Assembly (NCBI GenBank): GCA_026390435.1
Contig: JAPLFY010000141.1
Coordinates: 1 to 56,422, forward strand
Source of the DNA: Pseudomonadota bacterium
GTDB taxonomy: Bacteria; Bdellovibrionota_B; Oligoflexia; Oligoflexales; CAIYRB01
DNA length: 56,422 bases
Direction: 5' to 3'
A program made the translations under genes and the position numbers. The notes under the pieces were generated by a model that did not search any database, was not told where the DNA came from, and was given only the letters and a program-made list of their open reading frames with translations. The number at the start of each line of letters is the position of its first letter. The stretch's first letter is position 1. This document shows positions 1 through 36,046 of this stretch, piece by piece.

Positions 1-3000
1 GATGTCGGCTTCAACTAGATTTGCCCCGTAGATGACGCGGCCTTTCATGTCCACACCAACCTTGGTGTAGGTGCCGGCACTGGTGATGCCAGAGTTAACT
101 AAGGTTGGGCTTGGGTAGCTTCCAGTCAAATCACCGCTAGCAGCGCCTGTTGGACTTGTACCTGCGACCCAGCTCAAGGATCCAGAGCCGTTAGATGTGA
201 GTAAGTAACCGCTAGCGCCTACAGAAGCAGGTAGAGTCCACTCTAGCGATGAGCTCAGTGTGTCAGGAGCTTTAAGAGCAAAGTAGTTTGATGTGCCTTT
301 GTCATTCAAAATCAGTTTATTTGACAAGGTGCCAGTACCTTGGACTGTGATATTGCCCTTTGCTGTGACTGTAGATGAAGTTTTGATCGAGCCTGCTGTA
401 TCGATTGCTGTCGATCCACCAATGAGTGATACGCCAGCAATTGTGCCTGAATTGATCACAGGACTGGTGAGAGTCTTATTAGTTAAAGTTTCTACGTCTG
501 TTTCTGTGACGACGACACCACTGGATGGGAACGTGGCCGTCGAGGTTTTGCCGATACCGCCATTGCTAGAAGAAAGGATGCCACTGACGGCTGCTGAATT
601 GCCGAGGTTTAAAGCGCTAAATATCGGCATGCCACCGCCACTGGGGACGGTAAGGACTTGGTAGTCCGAGCCAGCGCTTGTGCTTAGCATGCCGTTCGCG
701 GAGTTGCCGATAACGACACCGTTGGTGTTAAAGGAAGTCGTTCCGGTACCGCCGTTAGTAACAGTGAATACGCCTGTCCCTATGATGCTTGCTGGTAGGC
801 TAGGAATATCGCTGCTCTGTAGGTTCAAACCAGTTACAACGCGACCTTTTGCATCGACAGCAACTTTGGCGTAGGTGCCGGCAGTGACACCAGAAGTAGC
901 CAAGGTTGGGTTTGGATAGTTACCAATAAGGTCGCCACCAGCAGCGCCTGAGGGAGCTGCGCCGGTTACCCAGCTCAAATTACCTGATCCATCTGTTTTC
1001 AGGATCTGATTGGCGGTGCCAACACTGCTAGGTAACGTCAAGACCGCAGAACCAGTTAACGTATCAGGCGCTTTGAGTGAGATCGAGTTCGTCGTGCCTT
1101 TGTCGTTTAAGATGATGGCTCTCGCATTTGTGTTGTCGCCACGGACTGTTAAAGTACCGTTGAGTACATGCGCGCCGGATGTGATAGTGCCCGTGGTGTT
1201 AATGACGGTCGAGTCTGTGATTAGCGAGGCGCCACTGATTGTACCAGCGGAGATTACCGAGTTGGTCAGAGTCTTGTTCGATAGAGTTTCTGTTGCTGTC
1301 TGGGTCACAACGACGCCGGAGCTTGGGAAAGTTGCAGTCGAGTTGATGCCGGTACCGCCATTACCAGTTGGCAATAACCCTGAGACTGCAGAGCTAGACC
1401 CTAGATTTACGCTGCCGAAGCTGGGGCCACTGAGAGTAGCGATCAAAACTTGATCCGCGCTACCTGCAGCTGTTGTGGAAATTGCACTGCTGCCACTACC
1501 GACCAGTACACCGTTGAGGGCGAAGCTGCTTGCGCCGGTACCGCCGTTGGCTACGCTCAGTGTTCCGGAGGTGATAATCGCGGCAGAAAGTGCAGGGATG
1601 TCAGACGCGGACAATTGGGTCGCAGCTGTTACGCGACCTTTTGCGTCAACGGTAACTTTCGTATAGTTTCCAGCACCAACTCCAGTATTTGTCAAAGTTG
1701 GGCTTGGATAATTGCCCGTGAGGTCACCGCCAGCCGAGCCGGAAGGAATCGAACCTGAAGCCCAGACTAGGTTGCCGGCGCCATCTGATTTGAGCAGCTG
1801 CCCATCAGTGCCGTAGCCGGTCGGTAGGCTAAAGGTCAGATTGGTAGCCAAGGCATCTGCAGCTTTTAGCGATATACCGTAGGTGTTTAGTGGATTATTT
1901 AGGACTAAGCGGTTGGCTTGGCCGCCGCTACCTTGAATCGTCACATTACTTGATGCGGTGATCGAAGAAGTCGTGGTGATCGATCCTTGCGTATTGATGA
2001 TAGTAGAGCCGCTGATCAATGAGGCACTGTTTATAGTTGCAGCAGTGATGATTGGGCTAGTTAATGTTTTGTTTGTTAGGGTTGCGGTGCCTACATCCGT
2101 AAGAACTACTCCGGAACTCGGGAATGTAGCAGTCGACGATATGCCGATACCACCGTTGCTAGATTGTAGGATGCCACTCACGGCATTTGCATTTGCTAGG
2201 TTTAACGAGCCAAAATATGGAGTGCCACCGACACTGGAAACGGTAAGGACGGAATACGCATTACCAGTGGCAGTTGAGAGTAGATTACCGGTGCCGCCGC
2301 CGATGATAACGCCGTTATTTGTGAAGCTGGTAGATCCGGTACCGCCGTTTGCAACGTTAAGTATGCCGCTGTTAATAATGTTTGCAGAGATGTTTGGAAT
2401 GTCCGAAGCTGATAGATTTGCTCCAGAGTAGACGCGACCTTTGCTATCTACTGAGACTTTGGCATATGTCCCAGCAGTCACACCACTTGGGCCAAGAACT
2501 GGATTTGGATAATTGCCGGAAAGGTCGCCACCAGCGCTGCCCGATGGCAAGGCAGAGGCTGTCCAACCCAATGAGCCTGAGCCGTTAGTGGTCAGTAGTT
2601 GGCCACCGGATCCGTCGTTTGCGGGTAGTGTAAATATGCGCGAAGCGAGTAACGCGTCTGGTGCCTTAAGTGCTACGTAGAACGTAGATCCACTGTCATT
2701 AAGCACTAGTTTATTAGCTGTGGATGTGTTGCCTTGGATCCTGAGATCGCCTACCACAGTATTTGCACCAGACTTGATCGTGCCGCTGGTGTCAATCGAT
2801 GATGAGCCAGTAATGACAGTCGAACCTGTAATCGTACCGCCGGTGATTAGTGGTGTGCTAAGAGACTTGTTGCTTAAAGTCGCGCTGCCAGCTTCAGTGA
2901 CTATCACTCCGGTGCTAGGGAAAGTCGCACCCGAATTAATACCTGTACCACCCAAACTTGCCGGTAAGATCCCGCTAACCGATGATGAGCTACTCAGATT

Positions 3001-6000
3001 TAGCGCGCTGAATGTCGGCATGCCGCCGCCGAGTGGAACTGAGAGAATTTGGTAACTTGTGCCTGGCGCTATGCTCAATAAAGCGCTCGTGCCGTTACCT
3101 ACCAGTAGGCTGTTGGCGGTGAAATTATTCACGCCGGTACCGCCTCTGTTTACTGCAATCTCTCCAGAACTAATGATCGAAGATGGTAGGCTTGGAATGT
3201 CCGAGACTGTTAAACTACCACCCGAGTAAACACGTCCCTTCAAATCGACTGCAACTTTCGCATAAGTGCCGGCGACCACCCCCGTAGCGGTGAGAGTAGG
3301 GGCCGGGTACGATCCGGTAAGGTCACCGCTTGCGCCGCCGGTAGGTGACGTACCAGAAACCCAACTCAATACACCGGAGCCGTCTGTTGTCAGTAGCTGA
3401 CCGTTGCTGCCGTCGGTGCCTGGGAGGGTCCAGACTTTTGAGGCTGCTAGAGTATCAGGGGCTTTGAATGACAGAGACTTAGCATTTGTTTGATCGTTGA
3501 AGATGAGTTTGTTTGCAGTTCCGGCACTACCTTGGATCGTCATATTACCAGTGACCGAGGTTGCACCCATGCTAGCGGTGCCGGTTGTGTTGATGATTGA
3601 GGACCCGCCAAGTACTGAAGCGCCGCTGATAGTCCCGTTCGTAAATAAAGAACCATCTATGGTTTTGTTGGTCAGAGTTTGGCTGGCGTCTGCTGTTACG
3701 ATGGTTCCTGACGTTGGATAAACTGCGGTCGAAGAAGTGCCCGTACCACCTGCGCTGGCGGGAAGTATGCCACTGGTGGCTGCTGCGTCAGCTAAATTAA
3801 GTGCGCCGAAAGAGGGCAGGCCGCCGCCTGATGGGATTCTTAGGATCTGATTGGCTGAGCCAGCGGCGGTTGACATCAGATTGCCAGTGCCGTTACCGAG
3901 GACGACTCCATTGTTGGTCAGGTTAGCTACGCCGGTACCGCCGTTGATCACACCAAATACACCTGAATTGATGATGGAAGCTGGTAAACTGGGGATGTCC
4001 GACGTCGACAGAGTCAGACCGGTGGTTACTCGACCTTTTGCATCAACAGTTACTTTGGCATAGTTGCCTGCGGTGACGCCGCTGGCTTTGAGAGTCGGGC
4101 TCGGATAGCTACCAGTTAAGTCGCCGCCTGCACTTCCCGACGGTGCTGTGCCGGTTACCCAGCCGAGTGAACCTGCTCCGTTGGTTGTCAGCAATTGGCC
4201 GCTACCGCCGTCAGCACCAGGCAAGACCAGAGTCACTTGGCCAGATACAGTGTCTGGAGCTTTTAAAGCGATGTAGTTGGATGTTCCTTTGTCGTTAAAT
4301 ATAAATTTGTTAGCAGTTGTGCTGTTGCCCTGCATCGTGATGTTGCCAGCAACTGTGGCAGTACCGATGTTCATCGTGCCAGTACTGTTGATAACGGTGC
4401 TGCCGGAGATTAGTGAGGTACCAGTGAGTGTGCCATTGTTCATGACAGGGCTAGTGAGGGTTTTGTTGCTCAGAGTTTCTATGGCCGTCTGAGTGACGAT
4501 TGTGCCTGATACTGGGAATATTGCCGCAGAATTAACACCAGTACCACCGTTGGCTATGCCTAAGATCCCGGTGACCGCTGCCGACTGGTCTAGGTTGAGC
4601 GCGCCGAAAGCTGGCGTGCCACCATTGCTTGGTACAGTGAGTAATTGGTAGGCTCCGCCGGCAGCTGTTGAGAGCAGGTTGTTACCGCCAGTGCCTAGAA
4701 TGACGCCGTTATTGCCGAAGTTCGCGGCACCGGTACCGCCGTTGCTGACACCAAGTATGCCGGAGCCGATGATGCTTGCAGGTAGACTTGGAATATCGCC
4801 AGCGCTCAGGCTCATGCCGGCAAGTACGCGCCCCTTAGCGTCAATGCGAACTTTAGCATACGTGCCGGCGGTTGCACCTGTAGCTGGTAGTGTTGGGTTT
4901 GGATAAGAGCCCGTTAGGTCGCCGCCAGCAGCGCCGGTTGGAGCCGCGCCACTTACCCAGGCAAGAACTCCCGATCCATTAGTCGACAACATCTGATTTG
5001 CCGACCCATCGGCACCAGGTAGAGTCCAGACCACAGACGTTGTGACAGTGTTGGGTGCTTTGAATGCTAACGATTTACTGCCAGTGTCGTTAAATATGAG
5101 TTTATTCGCGACGCTGTTAGTACTTTTGATGGTAATCGTGCCGCTTACCGCTTGTGCACCAGAACTCACGGTTCCGGTTGTATTAATGACGGTAGCGCCT
5201 TCGATGGACGAGGATCCGTTGATAATGCCTGATGCAATCGTAGGGCTATTGAGAGTTTTATTGCTTAGAGTCTCAACTGCGTCTTGAGTGACGATTACGC
5301 CGGTCGTTGGGTAACTGGCGGTTGAGACTGTTCCTGTACCACCTAAAGTTGAAGGTAGAATTCCAGACACTGCATTAGCTGAAGATAGGTTGACCGCGCC
5401 AAAGTATGGCTTGGTACCGTCGGTTGGAGTGACAAGGCTTTGATATGGTAAGCCGGCTTGAGTTGTAAGTAGGCCACCAGTTCCGTTGCCGATGACGACG
5501 CCCATGCTAGTGAAACTATTGGTGCCGGTGCCGCCTACAGTTACGTCGACTGCGCCAGAAACAATCTTAGAAGCATCTAAACTTGGGATGTCAGCAGGAA
5601 GCAGATTAGTGCCAGCAGTAACGCGGCCCTTAGCATCAACCGTCACTTTGGGATAAACACCTGGGATTGCCACCGATTTTAATGTTGGGTTCGGATAGAT
5701 GCCGGTTAAATCGCCGCCAGCAGTGCCAGTTGGGCTTGCGCCTGAAACCCAGGAGAATTGACCGCTGCCATTGGTAGTAAGCAATTGACCAGTCGAACCA
5801 TCTCCGTTCGGCAGTGTAAATATCACCGAGGACGTAACGTTGTCAGGTGCCTTCAGAGATATCGAATTATTACTGGAACCGCCGTCCCTAAAGACTAATT
5901 TGTTAGCTAATGCGGTGCTTGTGGTGATGGTGATATCACCTTCGACTGTGCTAGCGCCGGAGTTAATCGTTCCAGTAGTGCTGATGGTGGTTGCACCGTC

Positions 6001-9000
6001 AATGCGGACGCCAGAGATAGTGCCGCCGTTGATTTGAGGTGTGGTTAATGTTTTCGCTAGCAGAGTTTGAGCAGCTTCTGCAGTAACAACAGTACCCTCG
6101 GTGGGGAATGTCGCTGTCGAATCGACACCGGTACCGCCGAACGTCCTAGGCAGTATACCGGTGACGGCTGCTGACTGAGAAAGGTCGATGGCGCCAAACG
6201 AAGGCATGCCGCCGCCGGCAGGAACAGTCAGGCTTTGGTAAGGAGCACCAGCATCAGTGACTTGAAGTGCATCGAAATTATTACCGATGATAACGCCATT
6301 AGACGTAAAGCTACCGGCGCCTGTACCACCTTTTGTGACATCAAAGACGCCAGAACCAATGATTGATGCATTTAAGCTTGGAATGTCACTTGCGGTTAAT
6401 CCACCACCGAAAGTCACGCGTCCTTTAGTATCGACTCGAACTTTCGTGTAGGTTCCGGCGGTTGCGCCAGATGCCGCTAACGTTGGGTTCGGATAACTGC
6501 CGGAAAGGTCGCCACCAGCAGCACCAGACGGTAGGGATCCGGATGTCCAGCTTAAAACCCCAGCACCGCTGGTACTCAGTAACTGCCCGGCCGTACCATC
6601 GCTACCTGGTAGAGTCCATGTGACGGACGCAGCCAACGTGTTGGGAGCTCTAAATGAAACCGAGTTTATGGTTCCTTTGTCATTTAATATTAGTCTGTTG
6701 GATGTACTGCTGTTGCCCTGAACAGTGACGTTACCAGCTATTGTGGTAGTACCAATATTTGCTGTGCCAGTCGTATTGATGGTCGTGCTGCCACTGATTA
6801 CAGACGCACCGTTGATTGTGCCCGCTGTGATGACCGGACTAGTGATTGTTTTGTTAGTTAAAGTTTGGCTGCCGACATCAGTGATGATGACGCCCGAAGT
6901 TGGGAAAGTGGCGTTTGAATTCACTCCGCTACCACCAAGTGAGGTAGGCAGAATGCCGGTAACGGCTGCGGTTTGGCCTAGGTTAATCGCGCCGAATGAT
7001 GGAGTCCCGCCACCGCTTGGCACTACCAAGCTTTGGTAAGCCGTGCCTTTGGCGGTGGATAAAAGGTTAGACGAGCCGTTGCCAATAATGACGCCGTCAG
7101 TTGTGAAGCTTGAGGTCCCCGTACCACCATTACCCACACCAAAGATGCCGGAGGCAATGATAGTTGCTGGTAACTGTGGAATGTCACTTGGGACGAGGGT
7201 GGTGGCTGACAGCACGCGGCCTTTTGCATCTACACGCACTTTAGAATAGGTGCCAGCTCCCACGCCGGTTGTAGTAAGCGTTGGGTTTGGATAAACCCCG
7301 GTTAAGTCGCCGCCGGCAGCACCAGATGGAGCTGCACCTGTAACCCAGGCTAGTTGGCCTGAGCCGCTAGTGGTCAGTAATTGCCCGCTTTGTCCATCGG
7401 TTCCTGGTAAGATCCAGTTTACGGACGCGCCAATGGTATCGGGTGCTCTCAGCGATAGATAGTTCGTGGTCCCCTTATCATACATTAGCAATCGGCTGGA
7501 ATTTGCAAAGTTTCCGGTGATGCCGATGTTACCTGCAATGGTCGTCGCGCCGGCACTGATTGTTCCCGTTGTGGAAATATTTGTCGTGCCAGTTATCAGT
7601 GCAGCACCCGTGATTGTGCCGCCATTTATTGTTGGCGTGGTTAGCGTTTTATTACTCAAAGTTTCTGTTTCTGTTTGAGTTACGACGGTGCCAGTGGTTG
7701 GGAAAACTGCGGTCGAGTTGACACCGGTACCACCATTCGCTCGTGCCAGAACATTGGTAATCGCTGCTGCCTGTGACAGGTCGATAGCACCGAAGCTTGG
7801 TGCTCCGCCTGCACTCGGTACAGTTAAGCTTTGGTAAGCGGAGCCGGAAAGAGTCGAGCTGAGGCCGCCGGTGAGGTTGCCAAGCACCACTCCATTTTGA
7901 TTAAAGCTGGTTGCACCGGTACCGCCGAATGGCACACTGAAGACTCCAGAGCCGATGATTGATGTCGGTAAGCTTGGGATATCACCAGATACCAAGCTGA
8001 AGCCGCCAAATACACGGCCTTTTGCATCAACATATACTTTTTGGTAAGTGCCGGCCGAGATGCCGGTTCCGGTCAATACTGGGCTAGGGTAAGAACCAGT
8101 CAAGTCTCCCGAGGCTGCTCCTGTAGGAGCTGCACCAGCGACCCAAGCTAGATTGCCGCTACCAGTGGTGGTGAGCAATTGACCGCTGGTACCTTCGGTA
8201 GTGGGGAGCGTAAGGTTATAGGATGTGCCCATGATGTCGGGAGAGCGCAAGCCAATGTAGTTGGTTGTGCCTTTGTCATTTAGCACCAATTTATTGGCCA
8301 AGGTTCCGGTGCCTTGAATTGTTACATTTCCCGCTACTGTTGTGCTTCCGGCGCTAATCGTCCCGCTAGTACTGATCACAGTGGAGCCACTTATAAGCGA
8401 TGCGCCATTTATTGTGCCAGCAGTGATAATCGGCTTATCTAGAGTTTTATATTGTAGAGTTTCGACAGCATTGCGAGTCACTACGGTACCCGTGGTCGGG
8501 TATACGGCGTTGCCGCTTACCCCGGTACCGCCGTAGGTAGCTGAAAGAGTGCCCGAGACAGCTGCTGACTGGGAAAGATTGATTGGTCCAAATTTCGGCG
8601 TTCCGCCGTTGCTTGGCACAGATAAGACTTGCCATGACGTGCCGGCTGCCGTCGATAGCAGGTTGCCATCATCGTTACCGATAATGACTCCATTAGCTGC
8701 GAAGGACGATGCGCCCGTGCCGCCGAACGGTACGCTAAACACGCCCGATCCAATACTGCTGGTTGGGAGTTTTGGTACGTCTGAGACATCTAAGCTAGCG
8801 CCGAAATATACGCGGCCTTTCGCATCCACAGCTACTTTTTGATAGGTGCCAGCGGTTACACCGGTTGTCGTAAGTGTAGGCTGCGGATAAGAGCCAGTTA
8901 AATCGCCACCAGCCACTCCGGTTGGACTTGCGCCTGACACCCAAGTTAAAATGCCCGATCCGTTTGTGCGAAGTAATTGTCCATCGCTACCATCACCATT

Positions 9001-21000: not shown

Positions 21001-24000
21001 GTCGGGCGCCTTAAGAGCCACCGAATTAGTCGTGCCGCGGTCGTTCAACACCAACTTATTAGAATAAGTACCTTGGCCTTGAATCGTTACATTGCCGGCC
21101 AGTGTTGCAGTGCTAGCTTTAACGTAGCCGCTGGTATTGATGTTAGTAGATCCGTTAATCAAGGACGCGCCATTAATCGTGCTTGCAGTAACGATCCCGC
21201 CACTTAGAACTTTGTTAGTTAGTGTGGCAGAGCCTGCTTCTGTGACCACTACACCAGTGACTGGGAAGGTTGCTGATGAATTGATACCGGTACCACCGAG
21301 GGCGGTAGGCAATAATCCCGTTACTGCGGCTGGCTGTGCAAGGTTCAAAGCGCCGAATGTTGGAGTTCCTCCATTTGCTGACACTACGAGAGTTTGGAAT
21401 GGTGACCCGGCAGCAGTTGAGAACAAATTGCCAGTCTGGTTGCCTATGATGACTCCATTACTGGAGAAGTTATTGGTACCAGTACCACCATTGGCGACAG
21501 GGACCATGCCAGATTTGATAATGCTTGCGTCTAATCCAGGAATATCAGACGCATTTAAAGTAGTCCCGGAAACGACACGGCCTTTAGTGTCAACACTCAC
21601 CTTTGGATACGCGCCAGCATATACGCCAGAAGGTGCGAGTTGTGGAAATGGATACGATCCGACCAAGTCCCCAGAAGCGGGACCAGACGGCATCGATCCG
21701 CTAACCCAAGTCATAGCACCTGTACCATCAGACGTTAAAATCTGACCGTTACCACCTACGCTAGAGGGAAGTGTCAAAGTGAGCGAAGCAGGTAGGCTAT
21801 CTGGTGCTTTTAAAGACACAGCATTTGTAGTCCCTCTGTCGTTAAACACTAACGAGTTTGCCTTTGCATTGTCACCTTGAATGGTCACGTTACCTAGCAA
21901 GGTTGCCGACCGAGCTTTGATTGCTCCCGTAGTGTCAATTTCTGTCGATCCAGTGATTAACGCTGTGCCGGCGATCGTGCCATTTGTAATCGTGGGAGCG
22001 AGTAGAGTTTTATTGGTTAAAGTATCGGGGGTGTTTTGCCCTACCAAGGTGTCGGTAGCAGTCGGTAGTGTCAACAAACCCGTATTTCTGATCGCACTTA
22101 TGATTGGGGCTAATAACGTTTTATTTGTTAAAGTAGTAGTGCTGTCTTCAGTAACGATCACGCCAGATGGCGGGAATACAGCAACTGAATTAATTCCCGT
22201 ACCGCCTGATCGAGTCGGCAAAATTCCGGTGATTGCTGCTGACTGGGTCAAGTCTACGGCACCGAAATAAGGTGATCCGCTATCGCTTGGCACAATCAAA
22301 CTTTGAAATGCGGAACCGGCACTAGTGGACGCTAAATTACCGTCAGAGCCACCAACCACCACGCCTTTAGCAGTAAACCCATTTGTCCCGGTACCACCTC
22401 TTGTCACCGGAATGATTCCCGAGCTTATGATGGAGGCTGGCAGGCTTGGGATATCTGAAATAAGCAGGTCAGAGCCGCTAAGTACACGGCCCTTCTCGTC
22501 TACCGAAACCCGGAAGTAAGTGCCTGGTGTGACACCTGTAGGAGCAAGGGTTGGGTTAGGGAAGGAGCCTGTAAGGTCGCCACCGGCCGCACCCGCTGGA
22601 GTAACTCCAGACTGCCAGGTTAGAACGCCAGCACCGTCGGTGGCAAGCATTTGACCAGAGCTGCCAATGGTGTTTGGTAAGGTTAATACGACCGAACTAT
22701 ACAGCGTATCCGGTGCTTTCAGGGAGACCGAATTAGCGGCGCCTTTATCATTGAGCACGAGTTTATTCGCTGTTGTTGCATTGCCGCGAACAGTGACGTC
22801 GCCGACTACTGTTGCGGCACCAGTTTGCACTGTGCCAGTGGTGTTGATTACGGTAGCGCCACCGATGACGGAGTTGCCAGTGATATTACCGCTATTAATA
22901 ACCGGACTAGTCAGTGTTTTATTACTCAATGTGTCAATGGTAGCGCGACCGACTAAAGTGTCGCTGGTCGTCGGTAAAACCAACACCCCGGTATTAGAAA
23001 TCGCACTAATGACAGGGTTAAGTAAGGTTTTATTGCTTAGTGTTTCTGATGCCGTTCTGGTGACTACCGTCCCCGTTGCCGGAAATACAGCGTCTGATTT
23101 GATTCCTGTACCGCCGGCGCTTTGCGGTAGGATGCCCGTGACGGCCGCGCCTTGCGATAAATTGATAGCACCAAATGTAGGCACGCCACCACCGGCAGGA
23201 ATCGTTAAACTTTGATACTCGGTGCCGGCGCCCGTAGAGAATAGGTTTCCTGCATTGTTGCCAAGGATGACACCATTACTTGCAAAGCTCGATGCACCGG
23301 TACCGCCGTTGGCTACAGGCAGCATGCCCGAGCCGATGGTAGATGCTGGCAATTTGGGGATGTCACTGACAGTAAGACTAGTACCATAAATTACCCGACC
23401 TTTTGCATCAACTTGGACTTTTTGATAAGTCCCTGCAGTGACTCCGGTGGCCACGAGTATCGGGTTTGGATAGTAACCAAATAGGTCGCCACCAGCGGCT
23501 CCGGAGGGAGCTGCACCAGTTACCCAGTTTAGTACTCCGTTGCCGTCTGTCGCGAGAATCTGACCGTTGCTACCGCCACCGCTTGGCAGCGTTAAGGTTA
23601 CGGATGCGTCGAGAGTGTCTGGTGCCTTAAGTGACACCGCATTCACGGCCCCTTTATCGTTTAGTATTAAACTGTTGGCAGAAGTGTTGTTACCTTGGAT
23701 TTTCACATTGCCAGTGATAGTTGTTGCACCAGCTTTAATCGTGCCGACAGTGTCGATGCTGGATGCACCGACTATGACCGTGGTGCCAGTAATGGTACCG
23801 TTAGTTAGGATCGGACTTGCTAGGGTTTTATTCGCTAGTGTGTCGGTTGTATTGCGTCCAACTAGAGTATCGTTTGTTGTTGGGAGATTTAGTGTTCCGC
23901 CGTTTACAATGGCGCTAATGACGGGCTCGAATAAAGTCTTGTTGGTTAGAGTGTCTGAGGTATCCCGCCCGACTAATGTGTCGCTAGTCGTGGGCAGAGT

Positions 24001-27000
24001 GAGAACTCCACCATTGGCAATTGTACTGATTGTGGGTTGAATCAGTGTTTTATTTGTAAGAGTTGCAGAAGCAGACTCCGTGACAATGACGCCGGCACTA
24101 GGGAAGGTGGCATTTGAAGTGATACCCGTACCACCAAGAGTTCTGGGTAGAAGTCCAGTGACTGCAGCTGATTGTGCTAAGTCAATCGCGCTGAAGTACG
24201 GCGTCCCTCCGCCACTTGGAATCGTCAAGCTTTGGTAGGCAGTACCTGGTGCTGTAGAGAACAAGTTGCCAGTTGCATTGCCTACTACGACACCGTTAGT
24301 GCTAAAGCTGGAAGATCCCGTACCACCTCGGTTGACGCCGAGTACTCCGCTTCCAATCTGAGAGGCCGGCAAACTTGGTAAGTCTCCAGCGGTCAGACTT
24401 GTCCCCTGCAAGACGCGGCCTTTGTCGTCGACGGCCACTTTGAAGTAGGTGCCAGGACTAACGCCTGTGGCTTTCAAAATAGGATTTGGATAAACACCAG
24501 CAAGATCACCGCCAGCATTGCCGGTAGGAGCGGCGCCAGCCACCCAGCTTAGCATGCCTGCTCCATCAGTCATAAGGAGCTCGCCGCTGTTACCAGTGCT
24601 GCCAGGCAGCGTCAACACGATGGATCCGGTTAAATTATTCGGCGCCTTTAGAGCTACTGAATTATTGGTGCCGCGGTCGTTCAAAACCAGTGCGTTGGCA
24701 GTGGTGCTATTGCCGCGAATGTTGACGTCACCAGTAACTGTGGTCGCCCCGGAGCTGACAGTTCCAGTTGTGTTGATTACCGTGGAACCGCTTATTACGG
24801 CGGCTCCGGTTACCGTGCCACCATTCAATAAGGCATTGGTTAAAGATTTGTTGGTCAGAGTATCAGTGGTGTTGCGGCCTACCAAAGTGTCAGTCGTAGT
24901 TGGCAGCGTCAAAGTGCCAGTATTGGTAATAGAGCTAATTTTTGGTGAAACTAAGGTTTTATTTGAGAGTGTGTCAACACTATCACGAGCCACCACGGTA
25001 TCATTCCCGGTGGGCAGGGTGAGTAATCCGTTATTGGAGATGGAACTAATAACTGGCGTTGTTAGTGTTTTATTACTGAGAGTCGCCGGTGCTGCTTCCG
25101 TGACAACAACGCCGAAGCTCGGGAATACAGCGGTTGACATGACGCCGATACCGCCGCGGCCAGTTGGCAGTATGCCGCTGACGGCAGCTGATTCGGATAG
25201 ATTTAGCGCCCCAAACGAGGGAGCGCCGCCATCGCTTGGAATGGTCAGTGTTTGATAAGCTGTGCCCGTTGTCGTTGATACGAGGCCGCCAGTCACTTTT
25301 CCGATGACGACACCGTTATTGTTAAAGCTGGATGCTCCGGTACCACCGTTAACTACTCCGAGCACACCGCTGCCTATCACTGATGCGTTTAAGCTCGGAA
25401 TGTCGCTAGAAATCAAGGTGCCACCGGCTGTGACTCGCCCTTTCACATCGACAGTGACTTTTTGATAGATGCCCGGGGTTACTCCTGATGGCGCCAAAAT
25501 TGGGTTTGGGTATTGCCCTGCCAAATCGCCGCCTGCATTCCCATTCGGGGCGCTGCCGGTGATCCAGCGCATACTGCCGGCACCATCGGTGGTGAGGACT
25601 TGGCCATCGGCGCCGTCGCTACCGGGCAAGGTATAGGTTACCGATGAGCTGAGCACATCCGGTGCCTTTAAGGCCACCGAATAATTAGTTCCCTTATCGT
25701 TAAAAATTAACTTATTTGCCGTGTCGGCGTTTCCTTTAATGGAAATATTTCCATCAATATTGGTGGTGCCGGCACTCAGCGTTCCGCTAATGTCGATCGT
25801 CGTTTGGCCGATGATCCTGGAATTGCCTGAGACTGTGCCCGAGGTAATCACTGGAGAAATTAAAGTCTTGTTGGTTAAGTTATCGGTTGTGTTACGGCCT
25901 ACCAAAGTATCGGTGCTGGTTGGGAGGCTGAGCGTTCCAACATTAGTAATTGTGCTAATCACCGGGTTAGTGATGGTCTTGTTATTCAAAGTCTCAGTTG
26001 CATCTCGCGTGGCGACGATACCATCAGCCGGGAATGTGGCAGTTGAACTGATACCGATACCGCCCCGTGTCCGCGGCAGTATGCCTGTGGTTGCTGGCAG
26101 TTGGGAAAGGTCGATTGAGCTGAAGGCCGGTGCACTGCCGTCACTTGGAATAGTCAGGCTTTGATAGGCTGCACCCGGTGCAGTTGCGTTGATTCCGTCA
26201 GTGCCGCTCCCAAGTAAAACCCCATTTGGGGTAAGGGAACCAACTCCCGTGCCGCCTCGTGGTACTCCGATGATGCCATTATCGATCTTCGATGCCGGGA
26301 GCGAAGGTATGTCGGCGACGTTTAGTGTGGTGCCGGCACTGATTCGGCCTTTGGCATCAACGGTAACTTTGGAATATTCGCCTGGTTGAACACCGGTAGT
26401 CGTCAGTGTCGGGTTAGGATAAATCCCGGTGAAGTCGCCACCGGCCGCGCCGGTTGGGCTAGCGCCGGATACCCAACTTAGGTTGCCTGATCCATCGGTA
26501 AAGAGTAGCTGATTAGGGGTTCCATCTGCACCCGGCAAAGTCCACGTCACGGGACCAGCGAGGGTCTCTGGAGCTTTGAGTGAAATCGCATTTATTGCAT
26601 TTTTATCCGTCAAAATTAGTTTGCTCGCGGCTCCGCTCGCGGCTTTGATCGTGACGTCGCCAGTGACTGTAGTGCTGCCAGATTTTACCGGTCCGGTTGT
26701 GTCGATCGATGTCGATCCGGTGATTAGTGCTGCACCGCTAATGGTGCCTCCGTTGGTCAGAGGCGACTCTATTGTTTTATTGCGTAGTGTTTCAGTCGCG
26801 TCGCGCGTAGCGACAACGCCAGAGGTCGGAAAGGTTGCCGATGAATTGACGCCAGTACCGCCCAATGAGGTTGGTAGCGTGCCGCTGGTAATGATGGAAG
26901 CTGACAAGCTCGGTATGTCCACCGGTGACAGGGTGGTACCCGAGGTCACGCGGCCCTGCGCGTCTGTGCTTATTTTAGTGTAGCCGCCCGGGACGCCCGT

Positions 27001-28338
27001 GTTTGGAAGGCCGATGATCGCCGAGTTGCCAACAGTGTTAACGACTATGCCGCTCCCCGCTGTGACGCTCGCAATCTTGCTGTTAAAGGTGAGCCAGTCG
27101 ACCACGGAAAGAAAGCCGGACGATACTGATGACGCTTGACCTAGAGAAATTCGACCATTTGTCGAGTCGTAAGAAACAGGTGCTGTAGCTGAAATCGCTC
27201 TTTTTGCTGCCGATTGAGCACGGGGATCAGTGTAGTAGAGATTGCTGCCTTCGCTCACATCGCTTGTGGTTAAGCTGATGTTTCCGGTTTTTCCTGCTAC
27301 GGAGGTCACTGGTACTTGCGGAAAGGATCCCCAGGTGAGTCGGCCTGATCCATCGGTCTGTAGTATCTGACCGGTCGCTCCGTCTGCAGATGGCAGCGTC
27401 CAAACTATGTCGCTTGGAACATCGTCTGGTGCCTTGAGACCTACATAGTTTGAGCCAGATAGGCTGCCGAATCTTAGTTCGCCAGTCTGTCCGGCTCCAG
27501 TGCTAAAGGCCTTAAGTTCAACGCCGGCTTGCATCGCAGTGGAGACAGAACCCGCGGTGAGGACGGAATCTGCGGTAATAGCCGTCTGTTTGGTATTGAA
27601 AGCCAGCCAATCTGCCGTACTAAGATAACCATCGCTGACACTTGTGGCTGCGACTATGGACAAAGTTGGGGTTGTGCTGGTCATCGTGACCGCAAGTGGC
27701 GGTGTTGCCGTTACAGTCGTGGTCGCAGGAGACCACATCACACCATCGTAACTTAGAACTTGTCCTGCCACGGGGGCGGCACCGCTGATGTTTGTCCCTT
27801 GAATCGCGCTCGCGTTTGGCGTTGGGCTTTTCCAAACAAACTTACCATTCGCATCTTTAGTCAAGAACTGGTTAGCTGCTGGAGCTGTAGATGGACCGAC
27901 GCTTAGTTTACCATCGGTATTAAAATCTACAGTCTTGCCATCGACTGGCACTCTTGCTGCATAAGGAACTGTTACGACCTGTTGCAGTGGATACGGTGCG
28001 CTGGCATGGGTCAGGTCTGTGATTTGGAACCATACCGGCTGCGAAACATCGGGGAATACTTTAGCGTAATCAGCAGCGCTCAGCGTCACTCTTAGCTGGA
28101 AGATCCCTTCCTGTAGAGTCACGCTTTCGAATCCGTTTGTAACCGCCAGAACTGGCGCGCTACCTTGGCCGTCGTGGAAAAAAGAAATCTCTAATGCGAC
28201 CGGTCCAGCGACTGGTTTGCCACTAGTTTCAGTCAGCCGCCCGCTAAGCACGAAGTCTAAAGTAGACTGAGCGATTGCTGCTTTGGCGGCAAAGACCAAC
28301 GTAAACAGGAGAAATGATATGCGCACTACACTACGCAT
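1..28338 (-). CDS. Giant repetitive tail-fibre-like surface protein (C-terminus beyond left edge)
   Basis: One open frame of 9,446 codons runs from ATG at 28338 to the window edge without its stop. I checked the frame by translating at the start and at about 26950, 20780, 13600, 841 and 1; all are in the same frame, and the antisense shadow frames stay in register throughout. I did not check every codon by hand. GGAGGAA precedes the ATG with good spacing. Residues 1-24 are a signal peptide (cleavage after AIA). Residues 25 to about 150 form an N-terminal domain starting FVLSGRLTETSGKPVAGP, homologous to that of the fibre gene at 48171-53003. A tail-fibre-type YYTDPR motif follows near residue 366. 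From about residue 460 there are roughly 33 units of about 266 residues with motifs KGRV, DIPSLPAS, GGTGVNS, DATETL-NKT and WTLP-DG. The family resembles the mosaic adhesive trimer fibres of Bdellovibrio, so a secreted trimeric fibre is inferred. The receptor-binding tip, if any, is not in view. Confidence 0.9.
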   Translation of the reverse strand, partial: MRSVVRISFLLFTLVFAAKAAIAQSTLDFVLSGRLTETSGKPVAGPVALEISFFHDGQGSAPVLAVTNGFESVTLQEGIFQLRVTLSAADYAKVFPDVSQPVWFQITDLTHASAPYPLQQVVTVPYAARVPVDGKTVDFNTDGKLSVGPSTAPAANQFLTKDANGKFVWKSPTPNASAIQGTNISGAAPVAGQVLSYDGVMWSPATTTVTATPPLAVTMTSTTPTLSIVAATSVSDGYLSTADWLAFNTKQTAITADSVLTAGSVSTAMQAGVELKAFSTGAGQTGELRFGSLSGSNYVGLKAPDDVPSDIVWTLPSADGATGQILQTDGSGRLTWGSFPQVPVTSVAGKTGNISLTTSDVSEGSNLYYTDPRAQSAAKRAISATAPVSYDSTNGRISLGQASSVSSGFLSVVDWLTFNSKIASVTAGSGIVVNTVGNSAIIGLPNTGVPGGYTKISTDAQGRVTSGTTLSPVDIPSLSASIITSGTLPTSLGGTGVNSSATFPTSGVVATRDATETLRNKTIESPLTNGGTISGAALITGSTSIDTTGPVKSGSTTVTGDVTIKAASGAASKLILTDKNAINAISLKAPETLAGPVTWTLPGADGTPNQLLFTDGSGNLSWVSGASPTGAAGGDFTGIYPNPTLTTTGVQPGEYSKVTVDAKGRISAGTTLNVADIPSLPASKIDNGIIGVPRGGTGVGSLTPNGVLLGSGTDGINATAPGAAYQSLTIPSDGSAPAFSSIDLSQLPATTGILPRTRGGIGISSTATFPADGIVATRDATETLNNKTITNPVISTITNVGTLSLPTSTDTLVGRNTTDNLTNKTLISPVITSGTVSGNSRIIGQTTIDISGTLSAGTTNIDGNISIKGNADTANKLIFNDKGTNYSVALKAPDVLSSSVTYTLPGSDGADGQVLTTDGAGSMRWITGSAPNGNAGGDLAGQYPNPILAPSGVTPGIYQKVTVDVKGRVTAGGTLISSDIPSLNASVIGSGVLGVVNGGTGASSFNNNGVVIGKVTGGLVSTTTGTAYQTLTIPSDGGAPSFGALNLSESAAVSGILPTGRGGIGVMSTAVFPSFGVVVTEAAPATLSNKTLTTPVISSISNNGLLTLPTGNDTVVARDSVDTLSNKTLVSPKISSITNTGTLTLPTTTDTLVGRNTTDTLTNKSLTNALLNGGTVTGAAVISGSTVINTTGTVSSGATTVTGDVNIRGNSTTANALVLNDRGTNNSVALKAPNNLTGSIVLTLPGSTGNSGELLMTDGAGMLSWVAGAAPTGNAGGDLAGVYPNPILKATGVSPGTYFKVAVDDKGRVLQGTSLTAGDLPSLPASQIGSGVLGVNRGGTGSSSFSTNGVVVGNATGNLFSTAPGTAYQSLTIPSGGGTPYFSAIDLAQSAAVTGLLPRTLGGTGITSNATFPSAGVIVTESASATLTNKTLIQPTISTIANGGVLTLPTTSDTLVGRDTSDTLTNKTLFEPVISAIVNGGTLNLPTTNDTLVGRNTTDTLANKTLASPILTNGTITGTTVIVGASSIDTVGTIKAGATTITGNVKIQGNNTSANSLILNDKGAVNAVSLKAPDTLDASVTLTLPSGGGSNGQILATDGNGVLNWVTGAAPSGAAGGDLFGYYPNPILVATGVTAGTYQKVQVDAKGRVIYGTSLTVSDIPKLPASTIGSGMLPVANGGTGASSFASNGVILGNNAGNLFSTGAGTEYQSLTIPAGGGVPTFGAINLSQGAAVTGILPQSAGGTGIKSDAVFPATGTVVTRTASETLSNKTLLNPVISAISNTGVLVLPTTSDTLVGRATIDTLSNKTLTSPVINSGNITGNSVIGGATVINTTGTVQTGAATVVGDVTVRGNATTANKLVLNDKGAANSVSLKAPDTLYSSVVLTLPNTIGSSGQMLATDGAGVLTWQSGVTPAGAAGGDLTGSFPNPTLAPTGVTPGTYFRVSVDEKGRVLSGSDLLISDIPSLPASIISSGIIPVTRGGTGTNGFTAKGVVVGGSDGNLASTSAGSAFQSLIVPSDSGSPYFGAVDLTQSAAITGILPTRSGGTGINSVAVFPPSGVIVTEDSTTTLTNKTLLAPIISAIRNTGLLTLPTATDTLVGQNTPDTLTNKTLLAPTITNGTIAGTALITGSTEIDTTGAIKARSATLLGNVTIQGDNAKANSLVFNDRGTTNAVSLKAPDSLPASLTLTLPSSVGGNGQILTSDGTGAMTWVSGSMPSGPASGDLVGSYPFPQLAPSGVYAGAYPKVSVDTKGRVVSGTTLNASDIPGLDASIIKSGMVPVANGGTGTNNFSSNGVIIGNQTGNLFSTAAGSPFQTLVVSANGGTPTFGALNLAQPAAVTGLLPTALGGTGINSSATFPVTGVVVTEAGSATLTNKVLSGGIVTASTINGASLINGSTNINTSGYVKASTATLAGNVTIQGQGTYSNKLVLNDRGTTNSVALKAPDSLNGSVTFTLPATEGSSGQLLTTTGSGELTWVTGAAPSGNAGGDLMGAFPNPVLTTTGVQAGSYIKVTVDAKGRVTAGTSLVVADIPNLSTVNITTGVFGVSRGGTGATSFTNNGVILGNDSGNLLSTGAGAAFQTLVVPSDGGTPSFGAINLSQSAAVTGILPTNRGGIGLNSTATFPSSGVVVTQTASETLTNKTLISPVITAGTINGASVIGGSTTISTTGAISAASVSVSGNVAIRGNNTNSNRLVLNDKGSNFGVSLRAPDTLASSIGYVLPGTDGGSGNILSTNGAGVLSWVSSAPPSGVASGDLAGLYPNPTLAPSGVVAGIYTKVTVDNKGRVIEGASLSMENIPRLPASIINDGQLPVMYGGTGASAFYTNGVIIGNSYGPLSSTAAGGRFQSLTVPADGGTPYFSAIDLSQSESVTGILPTNRGGIGVNSTAIFPTSGVVVTDTASQTLSGKTLTAPLINDGTISGTSLISGATTIDTTGSIRANGIASTGNVVIKGNSTTANRLVLNDRGSINSYALKAPDEMSGSIVWTLPSANGTNGQLLTSNGSGTLGWVSGAAPTGSAGGDLTGAYPNPVLTATGVPSGTYFRVTVDEKGRVTAGTSLVASDIPPLPMSVISYGTLNVTNGGTGTGSFTPNGVILGNSSNNLFSTAAGSAYQSLVIPAGGGAPAFSAVDLGQPTAVTGILPTARGGTGMTSNATFPSTGVIVTEAGTATLTNKLLSMPVITTGTINGVSRITGATVIDTLGTISAGATTVSGNVTIQGNGTISNKLVLNDKGVTNSISLRAPDTLSGSFIWTLPGIDGSSGQLLTTDGQGVLTWVSGAAPTGVAGGDLIGQYPNPILSSTGVAAGTYTKLRVDTKGRVLAGGSITVTDIPTLPASIIGSGVIGVTNGGTGSTSFAPNGVVIGNADGNLYSTAAGAPFQSLIVPSGGGTPTFGSINLSQASAVTGILPSSRGGTGLNSSATFPLSGVIVTESGSATLTNKTLNNPFITAGTISGASVITGSTTINTSGAISAGPITASGNVTVGGNGTNANKLVLMDKGAVNSLALKSPDTLTSSFTWTLPSGDGGIGQLLTTDGQGQLTWVTGAAPNGSAGGDLTGNYPAPVLTATGVNAGTYQKVAVDAKGRVSFGSTLTVADIPNLPASIITSGRINVSNGGTGTTNFTNNGVILGNGAGNLLSTSTGAPYQSLIVPSDGSAPTFGAVNLAQATAVTGVLPAKSGGTGINSNATFPTAGTIATRDAVETLSNKTLDMPLINSGTIGNNSLITGNTVINTTGTINSGSSTVAGSVTIQGNSTTANKLVLNDRGTINSVSLKAPDLVTSPITFTLPSSVGTTGQVLTSDGSGLLSWGNGTSPTGSAGGDLAGSYPNPILAPSGVSAGQYAKVTVDTKGRVTTGTSLIASDIPKLSASIIESGVLGVSNGGTGASSFANNGVVLGNITGNLFSTSTGSAFQVLTIPSDGGTPYFGPLNLAQNSAITGILPRSAGGTGTTSSATFPASGVIVTQDAVETLRNKTISAPVITGGTINGSMFISGNSVIDTTGTINSGAASVSGDVTIKGNSTNANRLVLNDSGTTNFVAIKSPDSLTSQITLTLPSVAGGTGQLLTTNGSGVLSWVSGALPTGVASGDLTGSYPSPTLTNTGVTPGTYFRVGVDAKGRVTSGATLTASDIPNLPASVITSGILGVSNGGTGSSSFTPNGIIVGNANGNLYSTAAGSAYQSLVVPSGGGTPYFAPVNLSQSAAVTGILPTTSGGTGMVSLATFPTSGVIVTQSAVEGLSNKTLTNSLMTTGTIDGYSLIGGATRIDTTGTASMGTTTIAGDVTIQGNSTTASKIILNDKGQSNSLALKAPDILGGSVVWTLPGTDGVPGQMLRTNGYGTLSWVSGAAPTGAASGDLTGVYPNPSLAPSGVNAGTYPKVTVDAKGRVTYGTSLVVADIPKLPASIINDGQLIVANGGTGAASFQTNGVVLGNGTGSLFSTNAGAPYESLTVPVGGGAPSFSAINLAQPSAVTGILPTSLGGSGLASTATFPSSGIVATRNAMETLTNKTITTPAINGGTLSNAVVNGSTTISISGTLDSGAATVSGDVTIRGNNNTANKLVLNDSGTTKSLAFKAPDTLANSIVWTLPGTDGGNGQLLSTNGSGFLSWVSGAAPIGDAGGDLTGSYPNPTLAASGVLAGTYPKVVVDTKGRVIVGTSLVAADIPSLNASVIKSGILGVANGGTGTSTFVNNGVILGNNAGNLFSTGAGSAYQTLIVPANGTTPYFGGLNLTQLAATTGVLPTSRGGSGVNSTAIFPSSGTIVTQDATETLLNKTISGGTITTSTINGSSIIGGATVIDTSGTITAAATTVNGNVTIRGDGFNANQLVLNDSGSTNFIAIKSPDNLSGPINLILPGAIGTNGQLLTTDGSGNLSWISGAAPTGLATGDLTGSYPSPTLTTTGVGAGVYSKVTVDTKGRVTAGTSLVAADIPNISADIINTGKLAVSFGGTGSTSFAKNGVIVGNDGSNLFSTAAGAEYQSLVVPFGGGTPFFSSINLSHPNAVSGILPRALGGTGVNSLAVFPTVGVVATQDATETLSNKTILAPIVTGGTINNARLSGTSVIDVTGTIAGGATTITGDVTIRGNTTSANKLVFNDKGTTNSLAFKAPNTLTGSVVWTLPSGDGGSGNLLSTNGTGALSWVASAPPGGAASGDLTGSYPNPTLTATGVVAGTYSKVTVDSKGRISAGAILTASDIPNLPATKISTGTIGVGVGGTGATSFTAKGVILGNNAGALVATAAGLPFQSLTVPQDGTAPYFSALDLSQSAAVTGVLGTAVGGTGVSSNAIFPATGTVVTEFESATLSNKTLNSPIIASGTINGASLITGATSIDTTGTITAGNTSIVGTLTVQPIGNLPNSLVFNDGGSTGFVAFKAPTSVTNSVTWTLPNGDGTNNQILTTNGNGLLSWVSGTSPTGAATGDLTGSYPNPALSPTGVTAGTYPKVVVDSKGRVKFGTALVPSDIPSLDASAIGAGILGTSRGGTGAGSFTNNGVILGNGGGNLMSTGAGLAYQTLRVPSDGTTPSFGALDLSQSNAVTGILKQNVGGTGVSGSATFPTSGVVTTDINVQTISNKTLSKPIITTGTVNGSSLIGGSTVIDTLGTIKAADTTIAGDITIQGNTNSARKLIFNDSGSTFSLAFKAPDTLSASTVLTLPSGDGTIGQVLGTNGSRDLTWLSAVPPNGVAGGDLSGSYPSPVLAASGVIAGVYPKVSVDAKGRVITGLPLSASDIPGLPASVISDGTLPVVRGGTGGASFNANGVILGNGGGSMLSTIAGAAYQSLTVPSDGSTPFFSAINLSGVGAVTGALPTKFGGTGVVNSTATYPSTGVLVTENGAGTLSNKTILSPVITAGTMNGSSLISGSTVIDTTGSITAGNTTVAGDLTVRGNNTTARKLVLTDRGTTNFLAFKSPDILSRTQIWTLPDGDGSSGDILSTNGTGALSWVSGTAPTGAATGDLTGSYPSPQLANTGVTAGTYPKVVVDAKGRVQFGTALVAADIPNLPASIINTGQLNVAFGGTGSSNFTNNGVIIGNNGGNLLSTPAGIDYQILTVPAGGGAPYFGAINLSQANAVTGVLGTSAGGTGQNSTAVFPTSGVVVTRDATESMSNKTVSSSTITTSTINGNSSIGGATVIDTSGTIAGGATTVRGDITIRGNNTIANKAVFNDSTNSYSIGIKSPDTLASSFILTLPDNDGDSGQLLRTDGSGGLSWVSGASPTGVASGDLAGSYPSPSLAPSGVVAGIYPKVTVDAKGRVTNGTALIASDIPALPASIIGTGMLSVGFGGTGSSSFTNKGVILGNDAGNLYSTPAGTAYQSLTVPSNGGSPYFSAVNLAQPTAVTGILPTNRGGIGVNSTATFPTSGVVVTADASQTLTNKALTSPVITGGTLTGSSLIGGTTVISTTGTINGGATTINGPITIRGDGTTANTLVFNDSGSTKSLGFKAPDTIGTSVTWTLPNGDGSDGQLLRTNGSGILTWVSGASPTGVAGGDLTGSYPQPTLTTTGVTAGTYQKVAVDAKGRVYFGASLDVSDVPKLPTSSIGSGVFSVPFGGTGASSFAANGVIIGNDDGNLLSTAAGTSWQVLSVPSNGGTPKFGPINLSQSAAVSGTLSATYGGTGVSGNAVYPTTGTVVTRNAVETLQYKTLDKPIITAGTINGASLISGSTVISTSGTISAGSTTVAGNVTIQGTGTLANKLVLNDKGTTNYIGLRSPDIMGTSYNLTLPTTEGTSGQLLTTTGSGNLAWVAGAAPTGAASGDLTGSYPSPVLTGTGISAGTYQKVYVDAKGRVFGGFSLVSGDIPSLPTSIIGSGVFSVPFGGTGATSFNQNGVVLGNLTGGLSSTLSGSAYQSLTVPSAGGAPSFGAIDLSQAAAITNVLARANGGTGVNSTAVFPTTGTVVTQTETETLSNKTLTTPTINGGTITGAALITGTTNISTTGTISAGATTIAGNIGITGNFANSSRLLMYDKGTTNYLSLRAPDTIGASVNWILPGTDGQSGQLLTTSGSGQLAWVTGAAPSGAAGGDLTGVYPNPTLTTTGVGAGTYSKVRVDAKGRVLSATTLVPSDIPQLPATIIASGIFGVGNGGTGTSSFTTDGVIIGNGSSNLLSTAKGTAYQSLVVPSGGGTPSFGAINLGQTAAVTGILPTSLGGSGVNSNATFPTSGVIITDVGSQTLTNKTITSPVITAGTINGASVISGSTTINTTGTANIGTTTIAGNVTVQGNSSTSNRLILNDKGTINSVSFRAPNTLAASVTWTLPGSDGTAGQLLSTSGAGVLSWTSGSLPSGAAGGDLSGSYPNPTLAASGATAGTYTKVRVDTKGRVTFGGGLTASDIPSLNASIIGSGVFDVTKGGTGAGSFTSNGVIIGNNFDALQVTDAGAPYQSLTVPAGGGMPSFGAIDLSQSAAVTGILPRTFGGTGVDSTATFPTEGTVVTAEAAQTLLAKTLTTPQINGGTISGVRIDGATTISTTGTINSGASTVEGDITITTSTALANKLVFRDGGSSNNSISLKAPDNVTSSVIFTLPNGDGSTGQLLTTNGSGQFSWVSGASPTGTAGGDLTGIYPNPTLKSVAIPGVYPKVTVDAKGRVTAGTNLLPADIPSLDASKIVSGAVDVTVGGTGTNSFTSMGVVIGNGTGGLLTTQAGLPYQSLVTPTDGTKPYFGAVNLSSANAVSGILPSTLGGTGTVSTASYPTTGVIVTQDAVETLSNKTLNSPTIASGIINGSSSIEGATVINTTGTVSSGAQAVSGTITIKSTNSVANKLIFNDTGSKSLAFKAPNTVTTSVVWTLPGADGSANQMLSTNGSGVLAWVSGAAPTGAAGGDLTGSYPNPTLPATGATAGTYAKVRIDAKGRVLAGMSLSAGDIPSLPASIIGSGILGVSNGGTGAANFGNNGVILGTGGNNLLSTAAGGAYQLLTVPSNGGTPAFGALNLDQSAAVTGILGIANGGTGVNSAAIFPVSGTIVTQTAIETLSNKTLTSPVMNNGTLTGTSLISGSTVINSTGTMNIGTATVAGNITMQGNSTTANKFIFNDKGTSNYIALKAPDTVSGQVTLVLPGADGGSGQLLTTNGAGSLGWVTGTAPSGSAGGDLTGSYPSPTLKASGVTAGNYAKVTVDAKGRVTTGLTLSTSDIPSLPASIINSGVFGVINGGTGVANLTNNGVVLGNGTGNLMSTAAGSANQILRIPSGGGLPSFGALNLADAAATSGILPASAGGTGTSSTAVYPTSGTIVTADASQTLTNKTIDGSLFTNGTISGASVLGGSSIINTTGTASMGATSVTGNMTIQGSAGTANKLIFNDQTNAKSLSFKAPDTLAASKVWTLPGTDGSNGQLLTTDGSGVLSWVSGTSPTGGASGDLTGSYPAPTLTATGVVAGTYAKVAVDLKGRVYSGGSLTVSDIPSLPSSIISSGEIAVNRGGTGVNNFTANSLLVGNGTSALLSIAPGTSYQILSVPLGGGMPTFSALNLSSSSSVSGILPASLGGTGINSGATFPSTGVIVTEAGSATLSNKSLSTPLITGGTITGSTVITGSSSIDTSGTIKSGANTVVGDLRIQGNTSTANKLVLNDSGSTFYVALKAPDALLASRIFTLPANDGSGGQLLTTNGSGSLGWTASALPSGSAGGDLSGNYPNPVLGPSGVTAGTYAKVSVDSKGRVYSGANLSASDIPNISANIINSGILNVANGGTGSTSFTNNGVIIGGGTGNLLSTATGNAYSVLTVSSVGGTPYFGSLNLANANAVSGILQSSNGGIGISSTATFPSSGVVLTDVGTATLTNKTLTSPIITAATINSASLISGSTIINTQGSITTTSSITASSNVTIQGSGGQANRLVLNNPLNTYGISLKAADALATNLTFSLPTGYGTDGQLLKSDGAGNLVWASGSIPSGSAGGDLTGNYPSPTLTNTGVGAGNYTKVTVDAKGRVTAATQLSASDIPALSAAIITSGTLSVANGGTGASSFALNGVLVGSGSSAISTTAAGSADQVLIATLSGPSFGSVNLGSSSAVSGLLPTGNGGTGINSTATFPSSGVVVTQTATETLSNKTLTNSVISAGTISGASLITDSTVINTTGTITSGAHVLNGTLTVRGDNTNARAIILNDKGTTNSISLKAPDTLTGSAVLTLPSSVGTANQILKTDGSGNLSWVTGAAPSGAAGGDLIGNYPNPTLATSGVTAGTYAKVAVDAKGRVVTGLNLQSSDIPSLPASIIGTGVFTVTNGGTGTTSFNTNGVVIGNSANGMLSTSAGSDYQVLTVPSGGGMPIFSALNLGNSAAVSGILSSSNGGIGKTSTATFPSSGVVVTETDVETLTNKTLTSPVINSGTIAGVSLIGGSTAIDTAGSIKTSSTVTAKGNITVQGTGTLSNKLILNDKGTSNYFALKAPDTLSSSLEWTLPASVGASGYLLTSNGSGSLSWVAGTSPTGAASGDLTGSYPSPTLVNSGITSAGTYTKVGVDMKGRVIYGANLVEADI
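37..26952 (-). repeat. Tandem ~798-bp coding repeats (34 KGR landmarks)
   Basis: The motif V-D-x-KGRV recurs 34 times in frame between positions 37 and 26952. The usual spacing is 798 bp (266 codons), varying by a codon or so; for example the last standard interval, 20779 to 21577, is exactly 798. Each unit has three modules: GGDLTG-YPNP to KGRV to DIPSLPAS; a GGTG-start module with a VVIGNG-like core; and a GGTGVNS module with DATETL-NKTL, INGGTISG and WTLP-DG. Copies are conserved in protein but diverged in DNA, largely by synonymous change, so the array looks old. Confidence 0.92.
21577..26346 (-). repeat. Repeat units expanded by 111-bp (37-residue) insertions
   Basis: KGR landmarks at 26344, 25435, 24415, 23395, 22486 and 21577 are spaced 909, 1020, 1020, 909 and 909 bp. 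That is 798 plus exactly one, two, two, one and one copies of 111 bp. The extra 37-residue module reads roughly TNKTL-P-ISAI-NGG, then LTLPTTSDTLVGR and TSDTL, and lies beside the NKTL motif that every unit has. The unit nearest the N-terminus (26344 to 26950, 606 bp) is instead 64 codons short, apparently lacking the middle module. Confidence 0.88.
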
Positions 28339-28539: not shown

Positions 28540-29043
28540 GTCAGAAGTTGGCTGCATCTGAAATATCTGTAATACCCAGCAATAATTGCCTATATTGCTA
28601 GTCAAAATGTGCCTACCGGGTTTCTGGGCGCATAGGGTCGAAAAGATTGAGTAAAGTGCTGAGTTGTGGGGCTTTCTTAAGCAGTCTAGGGAACGGCGTC
28701 TTCGGCGATTAGCTGCTGTTCAGTTTATAGAAATAAATTGTTTAATTACTGGCAGTTGAGGGGGCTCGTCGGTCTAGAAGGAGTTTTCATAAAAAAATTG
28801 CACGCTGAGATCAACCAAACGATCTTTTTGATGTTTTGGATTTGGGGAGTGAGGGGGGTGCCCGCTTGGATCGGTCAAAAGCAAAAACTGTCCAGCCGGC
28901 CAATTTTACTGTGGCGCTTTTCACACTTTTCTGACGGCACTTAACTTGCATGGTTAAAAAGGTGGGGAAGAGGCAAAGATGTTGCGTCGCTTCGTCGTCT
29001 CTTTGCTCTCGTTCCTCAGAATAAATATTAGGGGGAGTTAGTC

Positions 29044-29430
29044 ATGGGAGACGCCACCAAAACTCTGCCACAGCAATTTCATAATGCTGGCTACGACCGC
29101 GAAGAAGAGTATTTCTATCAAATGAACCGTGAGCTGATTGAGCGAAATCGGCGCGAGTTAGACAAGCAGCGCCAGGAACTGGCGACCATTAGTTTGGCAC
29201 AGGCTTATTGGATGAAATGTCCGAAATGTGGTGCTGCGCTCAAGGAGGAGACCGTCCTCGGACTTAAGGGAGATGGCTGCGAAAAGTGTGGCGGTGTCTT
29301 CTTTGATCGTGAGGAGATTGTGCAGCTAGCGGAAACTCACGAACCCCATGCATTTAAAGAGGCAATACGCCTGGTATTCGGTGCAGCTGCGAAAAAACTA
29401 CCTAGTGGCATCAGTCAGTTCCCGGTATAA
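29044..29430 (+). CDS. Zinc-ribbon protein, zf-TFIIB-like
   Basis: This 128-residue protein has an acidic and basic helical N-terminal half (residues 18-50, rich in E, R and Q). A zinc-ribbon follows, with C59-P-K-C62 and C79-E-K-C82, ending in CGGVFFDREEI. The spacing and the GCEKCGGVFFD signature match the zf-TFIIB family of small bacterial zinc-ribbon proteins, whose function is mostly unknown; nucleic-acid or protein binding is assumed. The start is supported by AGGGGGAG seven nt before ATG. It has no signal peptide and is likely cytoplasmic. The M20 peptidase gene follows in the same direction 59 nt later, and the two may be co-transcribed. Confidence 0.8.
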   Translation: MGDATKTLPQQFHNAGYDREEEYFYQMNRELIERNRRELDKQRQELATISLAQAYWMKCPKCGAALKEETVLGLKGDGCEKCGGVFFDREEIVQLAETHEPHAFKEAIRLVFGAAAKKLPSGISQFPV

Positions 29431-29489
29431 ATGAGACAAAGTCGAAGGCCTATCTCGGGCTGAGGACTCACTCTCAAAGGCCGGTGGAT

Positions 29490-35926: not shown

Positions 35927-36046
35927 AGACAAGTCACCTCAATCCAGCGGACACGTCTAGCCAATCCCTAATTGGTCAACTAACATAGTGCAAAATTAGG
36001 CGCTATTAAGAATTTAATAAGTATCTTTTGAAACATAAGCTTCGAT

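Follow-up and report, generated by a model that had tools for sequence, protein, structure and literature searches.

A predicted giant surface fibre of about 12,200 residues, resembling a much enlarged Bdellovibrio MAT, in a lake bacterium

The giant gene and its surroundings

The window, by which we mean the whole stretch of DNA analyzed (56,422 nucleotides), comes from a lake bacterium, the host, that is probably a distant relative of predatory bacteria. One minus-strand frame runs through it to the left edge, and its parts, together with the genes that matter for the argument, are as follows.

1..28338, minus strand: giant fibre gene, 5' part; 9,446 codons up to position 1, where the contig stops; estimate for the whole gene, 12,217 codons
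28270..28338, minus strand: predicted Sec signal peptide, residues 1-23 (MRSVVRISFLLFTLVFAAKAAIA, then Q), read from the sequence by eye
27937..28269, minus strand: beta-rich N-terminal domain (N-domain), residues 24-134; model pLDDT 72-91 over the first 100 residues
26443..27936, minus strand: neck, residues 135-632, between the N-domain and the first unit anchor at residue 633
21676..26442, minus strand: five long shaft units (303, 340, 340, 303 and 303 aa), their spacing equal within one residue in the ortholog from genome G004
1..21675, minus strand: regular shaft units of 264-268 aa, delimited by anchor spacing; these are units 6-32, followed by the initial 46 aa of unit 33
29032..30947, plus strand: divergent upstream genes, a zinc-ribbon protein (29032-29427) and an M20 peptidase (29484-30947), kept beside the complete G004 ortholog
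48171..53003, minus strand: a further, complete fibre gene, a 1,610-aa paralog whose N-domain is 33-35% identical to that of the giant protein and whose C-terminus is its own

The zinc-ribbon and M20 peptidase genes are locus markers and no part of the fibre.

An intact frame under purifying selection

The original prediction had described a frame of at least 9,446 codons, open from ATG 28338, with about 33 repeat units and roughly 0.9 MDa before the missing C-terminus. Our frame scan from that ATG to position 1 gave the same codon count, with zero in-frame stops, no frameshift and no N, while each of the five other frames contains 175 to 815 stops over the same stretch. We counted 33 unit anchors, corresponding to 32 full units and one partial unit, and computed a mass of 0.922 MDa for the visible chain (97.6 Da per residue). 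The predicted size thus holds for the visible part and falls short for the whole chain, which we estimate at ~12,200 aa and 1.2 MDa.

The left edge of the window is the end of the contig (C24) and not just of the window, and the host genome (G000) is a fragmented assembly of 153 contigs, which could suggest that the length was generated from repeats during assembly, or that the gene is decaying and its frame yields no single protein. We regard this as extremely improbable. Short-read collapse or expansion, which the original prediction had raised as a danger, is unlikely because the mean identity among the window units is 52% and the longest exact repeat inside the 28 kb frame is 23 bp; moreover, an independent complete ortholog carries its array on one contig with equal unit spacing. 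Decay is opposed by the comparison with the sister species G002 (MAG Loclat_bin-10810), in which 3,055 codons aligned without an indel (pS 0.31, pN 0.028, dN/dS 0.07). The fibre gene is an intact single frame under strong purifying selection.

Reconstruction of the whole gene

The complete ortholog belongs to another species of the genus (G004), where it lies on one 68.9-kb contig and encodes 12,413 aa (1.22 MDa), with its stop codon present. In the alignment, the window copy reaches to about residue 9,472 of this protein. The end of the frame, which the original prediction had proposed to seek by leftward extension, was recovered with its stop on another contig of the host genome, C106, where a truncated frame of 2,102 codons aligns with the ortholog from residue 10,142 onward at 53.5% identity. 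From these two ortholog positions, ~669 aa (2.0 kb) of the host's gene are missing between C24 and C106, giving the estimated total of 12,217 aa. The host genome yielded no gap-filling contig for this unassembled segment, and the ends of C24 and C106 do not overlap; a search of G002 for the middle and C-terminal end found neither, the G002 contig stopping after 3,055 codons. Two genes upstream of the window fibre gene match the upstream side of the G004 ortholog, and on the downstream side of that ortholog, seven genes correspond in order and orientation to those that follow the C106 frame. As judged from this flanking gene order and the alignment to the complete ortholog, C24 and C106 are one locus.

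Shaft units remain in register between species

The shaft is built from units marked by the anchor GGDLxGxYPxP, and after the five long units the spacing settles at ~266 aa. Among window units 1-29, 27 have the ortholog unit of the same index as their best match, at ~66% identity, and units 30 and 31 each match one half of a G004 double unit whose middle anchor is degenerate. With this double unit resolved the ortholog has 39 units, and the host's own gene is estimated to have 39 as well. Similarly, a pair of shorter paralogs, C69 of the host genome (4,682 aa) and G004:C34 (4,688 aa), has 14 anchors each, with 12 of 13 tested units in register. The unit register is old and stable. No cysteine occurs in the visible 9,446 residues, and the shaft as a whole is cysteine-free. 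An AlphaFold monomer model of a single unit was of low confidence (mean pLDDT 58) and was left out of the fold search.

Among 43 genomes of the order, full units (E < 1e-60) were confined to four, all of this genus. Since its short fibres contain such units too, the giant genes probably arose through duplication of a module that the genus already used.

A fixed number of units and a fixed register, together with a tip exchanged in the largest comparable pair, would be expected if the genus carried length-locked megadalton tethers whose reach is under selection. We offer this as a tentative idea, to which we give rather less than even odds. The fixed register may also follow simply from units too diverged to recombine, with no selection on length.

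An expanded family of fibres sharing the N-terminal domain

The N-domain occurs in 24 places in the host genome, each a separate gene, in 36 places in G002 and in 46 in G004, many of them at contig ends. The family of fibres bearing this domain is strongly expanded in the genus (genomes G000-G005), and, within the order, a few further families also have N-domain relatives. Neither a profile search of the PDB with the N-domain nor a fold search gave a PDB match (threshold 0.001 for the fold search), and a plasmid search with it returned none. A lone viral fold match below 0.001 was set aside for its low TM-score.

Within this family, the tip of the 1,610-aa paralog in the window is His-rich (AHNHTI and GAHTHSV repeats), unlike that of the giant fibre, and has a phage tail-collar-type look by eye; a 234-bp tandem repeat array lies inside its gene at 49209-50813. 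In a third giant lineage, G004:C18 (L036-L038), the frame stays open for at least 15,051 aa (1.47 MDa) and is cut by the contig end. This frame is larger than the window's fibre and has already entered its NVGIG region where the contig stops.

Likeness to phage tail fibres

The shaft matches the PHROG tail-fibre families 7389 (7e-32) and 9942 and, weakly (E ~0.01), the tail-fibre structures 6cl5/6cl6. Pfam scans covered the first 1,445 residues, 1,332 in the middle and the last 2,102, and detected no RTX, NRPS or PKS repeats or domains. These matches and absences agree with the early description of the protein as tail-fibre-like rather than as a polyketide/peptide synthase or RTX protein. The sole NCBIfam match of the fibre, to FlgD, was far below cut-off and was discarded as spurious.

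With phage and tailocin tail fibres the giant protein has in common the shaft motifs GDLxGxYPxP, DIPxLxAS and GGTGA and the general sequence style of trimeric fibres, and many viral contigs carry short stretches matching the shaft. While such resemblance could mean that the gene belongs to a prophage or a tailocin (a phage-derived particle) and encodes its tail fibre, not a fibre of the cell surface, the gene differs from phage fibres in its predicted signal peptide, in a length ~10 times greater and in sharing only short stretches with them, phage records having just ~40-45-residue motifs in common with it. Capsid, tail and terminase genes are absent among its neighbors, which instead include metabolic and signalling genes (peptidase, phytochrome kinase, PEGA, TPR, decarboxylase, transporter and similar); the locus is kept between species with these cellular neighbors, and the N-domain recurs in separate genes across the host genome. 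A phage origin of this kind is therefore very unlikely in our assessment.

The C-terminal region and its relationship to MATs

The C106 frame contains a region of beta-helix type with 12 GNVGIGTTxP repeats, followed by the tip. Its C-terminal part has its best PDB matches among the mosaic adhesive trimer (MAT) proteins of Bdellovibrio, namely 8ond (Bd2133; 1.7e-8) and 8oml (4.3e-4), and the last 120 aa match 8ond (2.4e-8) and 8ojn (0.0012). For the different tip of the G004 ortholog, MAT chains also rank first, weakly (8on4, 0.005). These matches fall in the beta-helix/NVGIG region and tip, a motif common to phage fibres, and are thus not fully MAT-specific. Between the host and G004, tip identity is 22% over the last 110 residues, compared with ~66% for shaft units in register, and cysteines are confined to the tip region in the proteins of both species. 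The 2,102 C-terminal residues gave no match to the S74 domain or to any other Pfam entry, and membership in the S74 subgroup of MATs, which would bring a C-terminal S74 chaperone-protease domain, was ruled out. A search for a Bdellovibrio genome, with a fragment of Bd2133 as query over the class and phylum scopes (the same 58 genomes), returned nothing.

MATs are typically ~1,000 aa long and follow a plan of signal peptide, beta-rich N-domain, beta-helices and exchanged tips; B. bacteriovorus HD100 has 21 of them, their N-domain is likewise reported by the authors to have no PDB match, and the crystallized piece of Bd2133 spans 14-15 nm over 370 residues, or ~0.04 nm per residue (PMC10769870). 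The window fibre shares much with the NS74 group of MATs, of which Bd2133 is an example (PMC10769870): a signal-peptide-like start followed by a beta-rich N-domain, likened by description and not by sequence; a repetitive fibre with a beta-helix and NVGIG-type motifs, which match 8ond, 8oml and 8ojn directly; exchanged C-terminal tips lacking S74 on a conserved shaft, in mosaic fashion; and many paralogs per genome with the same N-domain (24 in the host and 46 in G004, against 21 in HD100). It differs in being ~12 times longer (~12,200 against ~1,000 aa), in having ~39 diverged units of a 266-aa module, for which no counterpart has been reported in MATs, and in coming from a lineage other than that of the Bdellovibrio MATs.

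Taken together, the best reading, to which we assign a probability of roughly 0.75, is that the gene's product is a single chain of a giant MAT-type surface fibre, probably a homotrimer; we infer trimerization, surface display and target binding from sequence features. The window fibre is an extreme, much enlarged form of a known kind of fibre.

Proposed function and comparison with other giant proteins

In the mechanism that we propose, the chain would be exported via its Sec signal peptide and the conserved beta-rich N-domain would retain the fibre at the cell surface, while three chains co-fold into a long, cysteine-free shaft of ~39 units, mostly of ~266 residues. The beta-helix region would end in a small exchangeable tip that, far from the cell, may bind a target; a glycan carried by another cell or surface is the likeliest candidate. 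Phage fibres extend up to ~0.07 nm per residue. Taking this value and the ~0.04 nm per residue of the Bd2133 piece as bounds, we estimate that the fibre could reach roughly 0.5-0.8 micrometre.

The protein might instead be a giant surface coat or biofilm-matrix component, with a structural role in shielding, spacing or aggregation and no binding at the tip. A uniform low-complexity shaft does make up most of the mass, and coat-like giants are known, such as the 39,678-aa protein of Velamenicoccus archaeovorus (PMC10066038). However, a distinct beta-helix and tip differ between species while the shaft stays in register, and the C-terminal part resembles adhesive MAT tips, leaving a coat role improbable, if less so than a prophage origin. 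The V. archaeovorus protein, one of the giant ORFs of Omnitrophota, is likewise a presumed surface giant of an uncultured bacterium, and larger still, but it has 42 predicted transmembrane helices where the window protein is a regular fibre; most Omnitrophota giant ORFs are poorly conserved, whereas the window fibre is conserved unit by unit between species (PMC10066038).

Huge proteins have already been surveyed (PMC11573180), and our literature search, of partial coverage, found no paper on a megadalton protein of MAT or tail-fibre type. Many giant ORFs have no assignable function; the giant bacterial gene described here, by contrast, has a clear architecture, and its complete ortholog is available. 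The MAT or tail-fibre plan is apparently scalable to more than 1 MDa per chain and held intact by selection. Questions that follow are how export and assembly of so long a chain proceed with no S74 chaperone, why the number of units is fixed, and whether fibre length sets the distance at which the bacterium seizes other cells.

Other features of the window

The minus-strand gene at 33176-35932 encodes a bacteriophytochrome-type hybrid histidine kinase (PAS_2, GAF, PHY, HisKA, HATPase and receiver domains), a composition that suggests red-light sensing. On the same strand, 40434-42548 encodes a 704-aa protein combining urea-transporter and M23 peptidase domains, an unusual pairing. Within 31143-31256, a tRNA-Leu(caa) gene is directly followed by a (TC)13.5 repeat (31230-31256).
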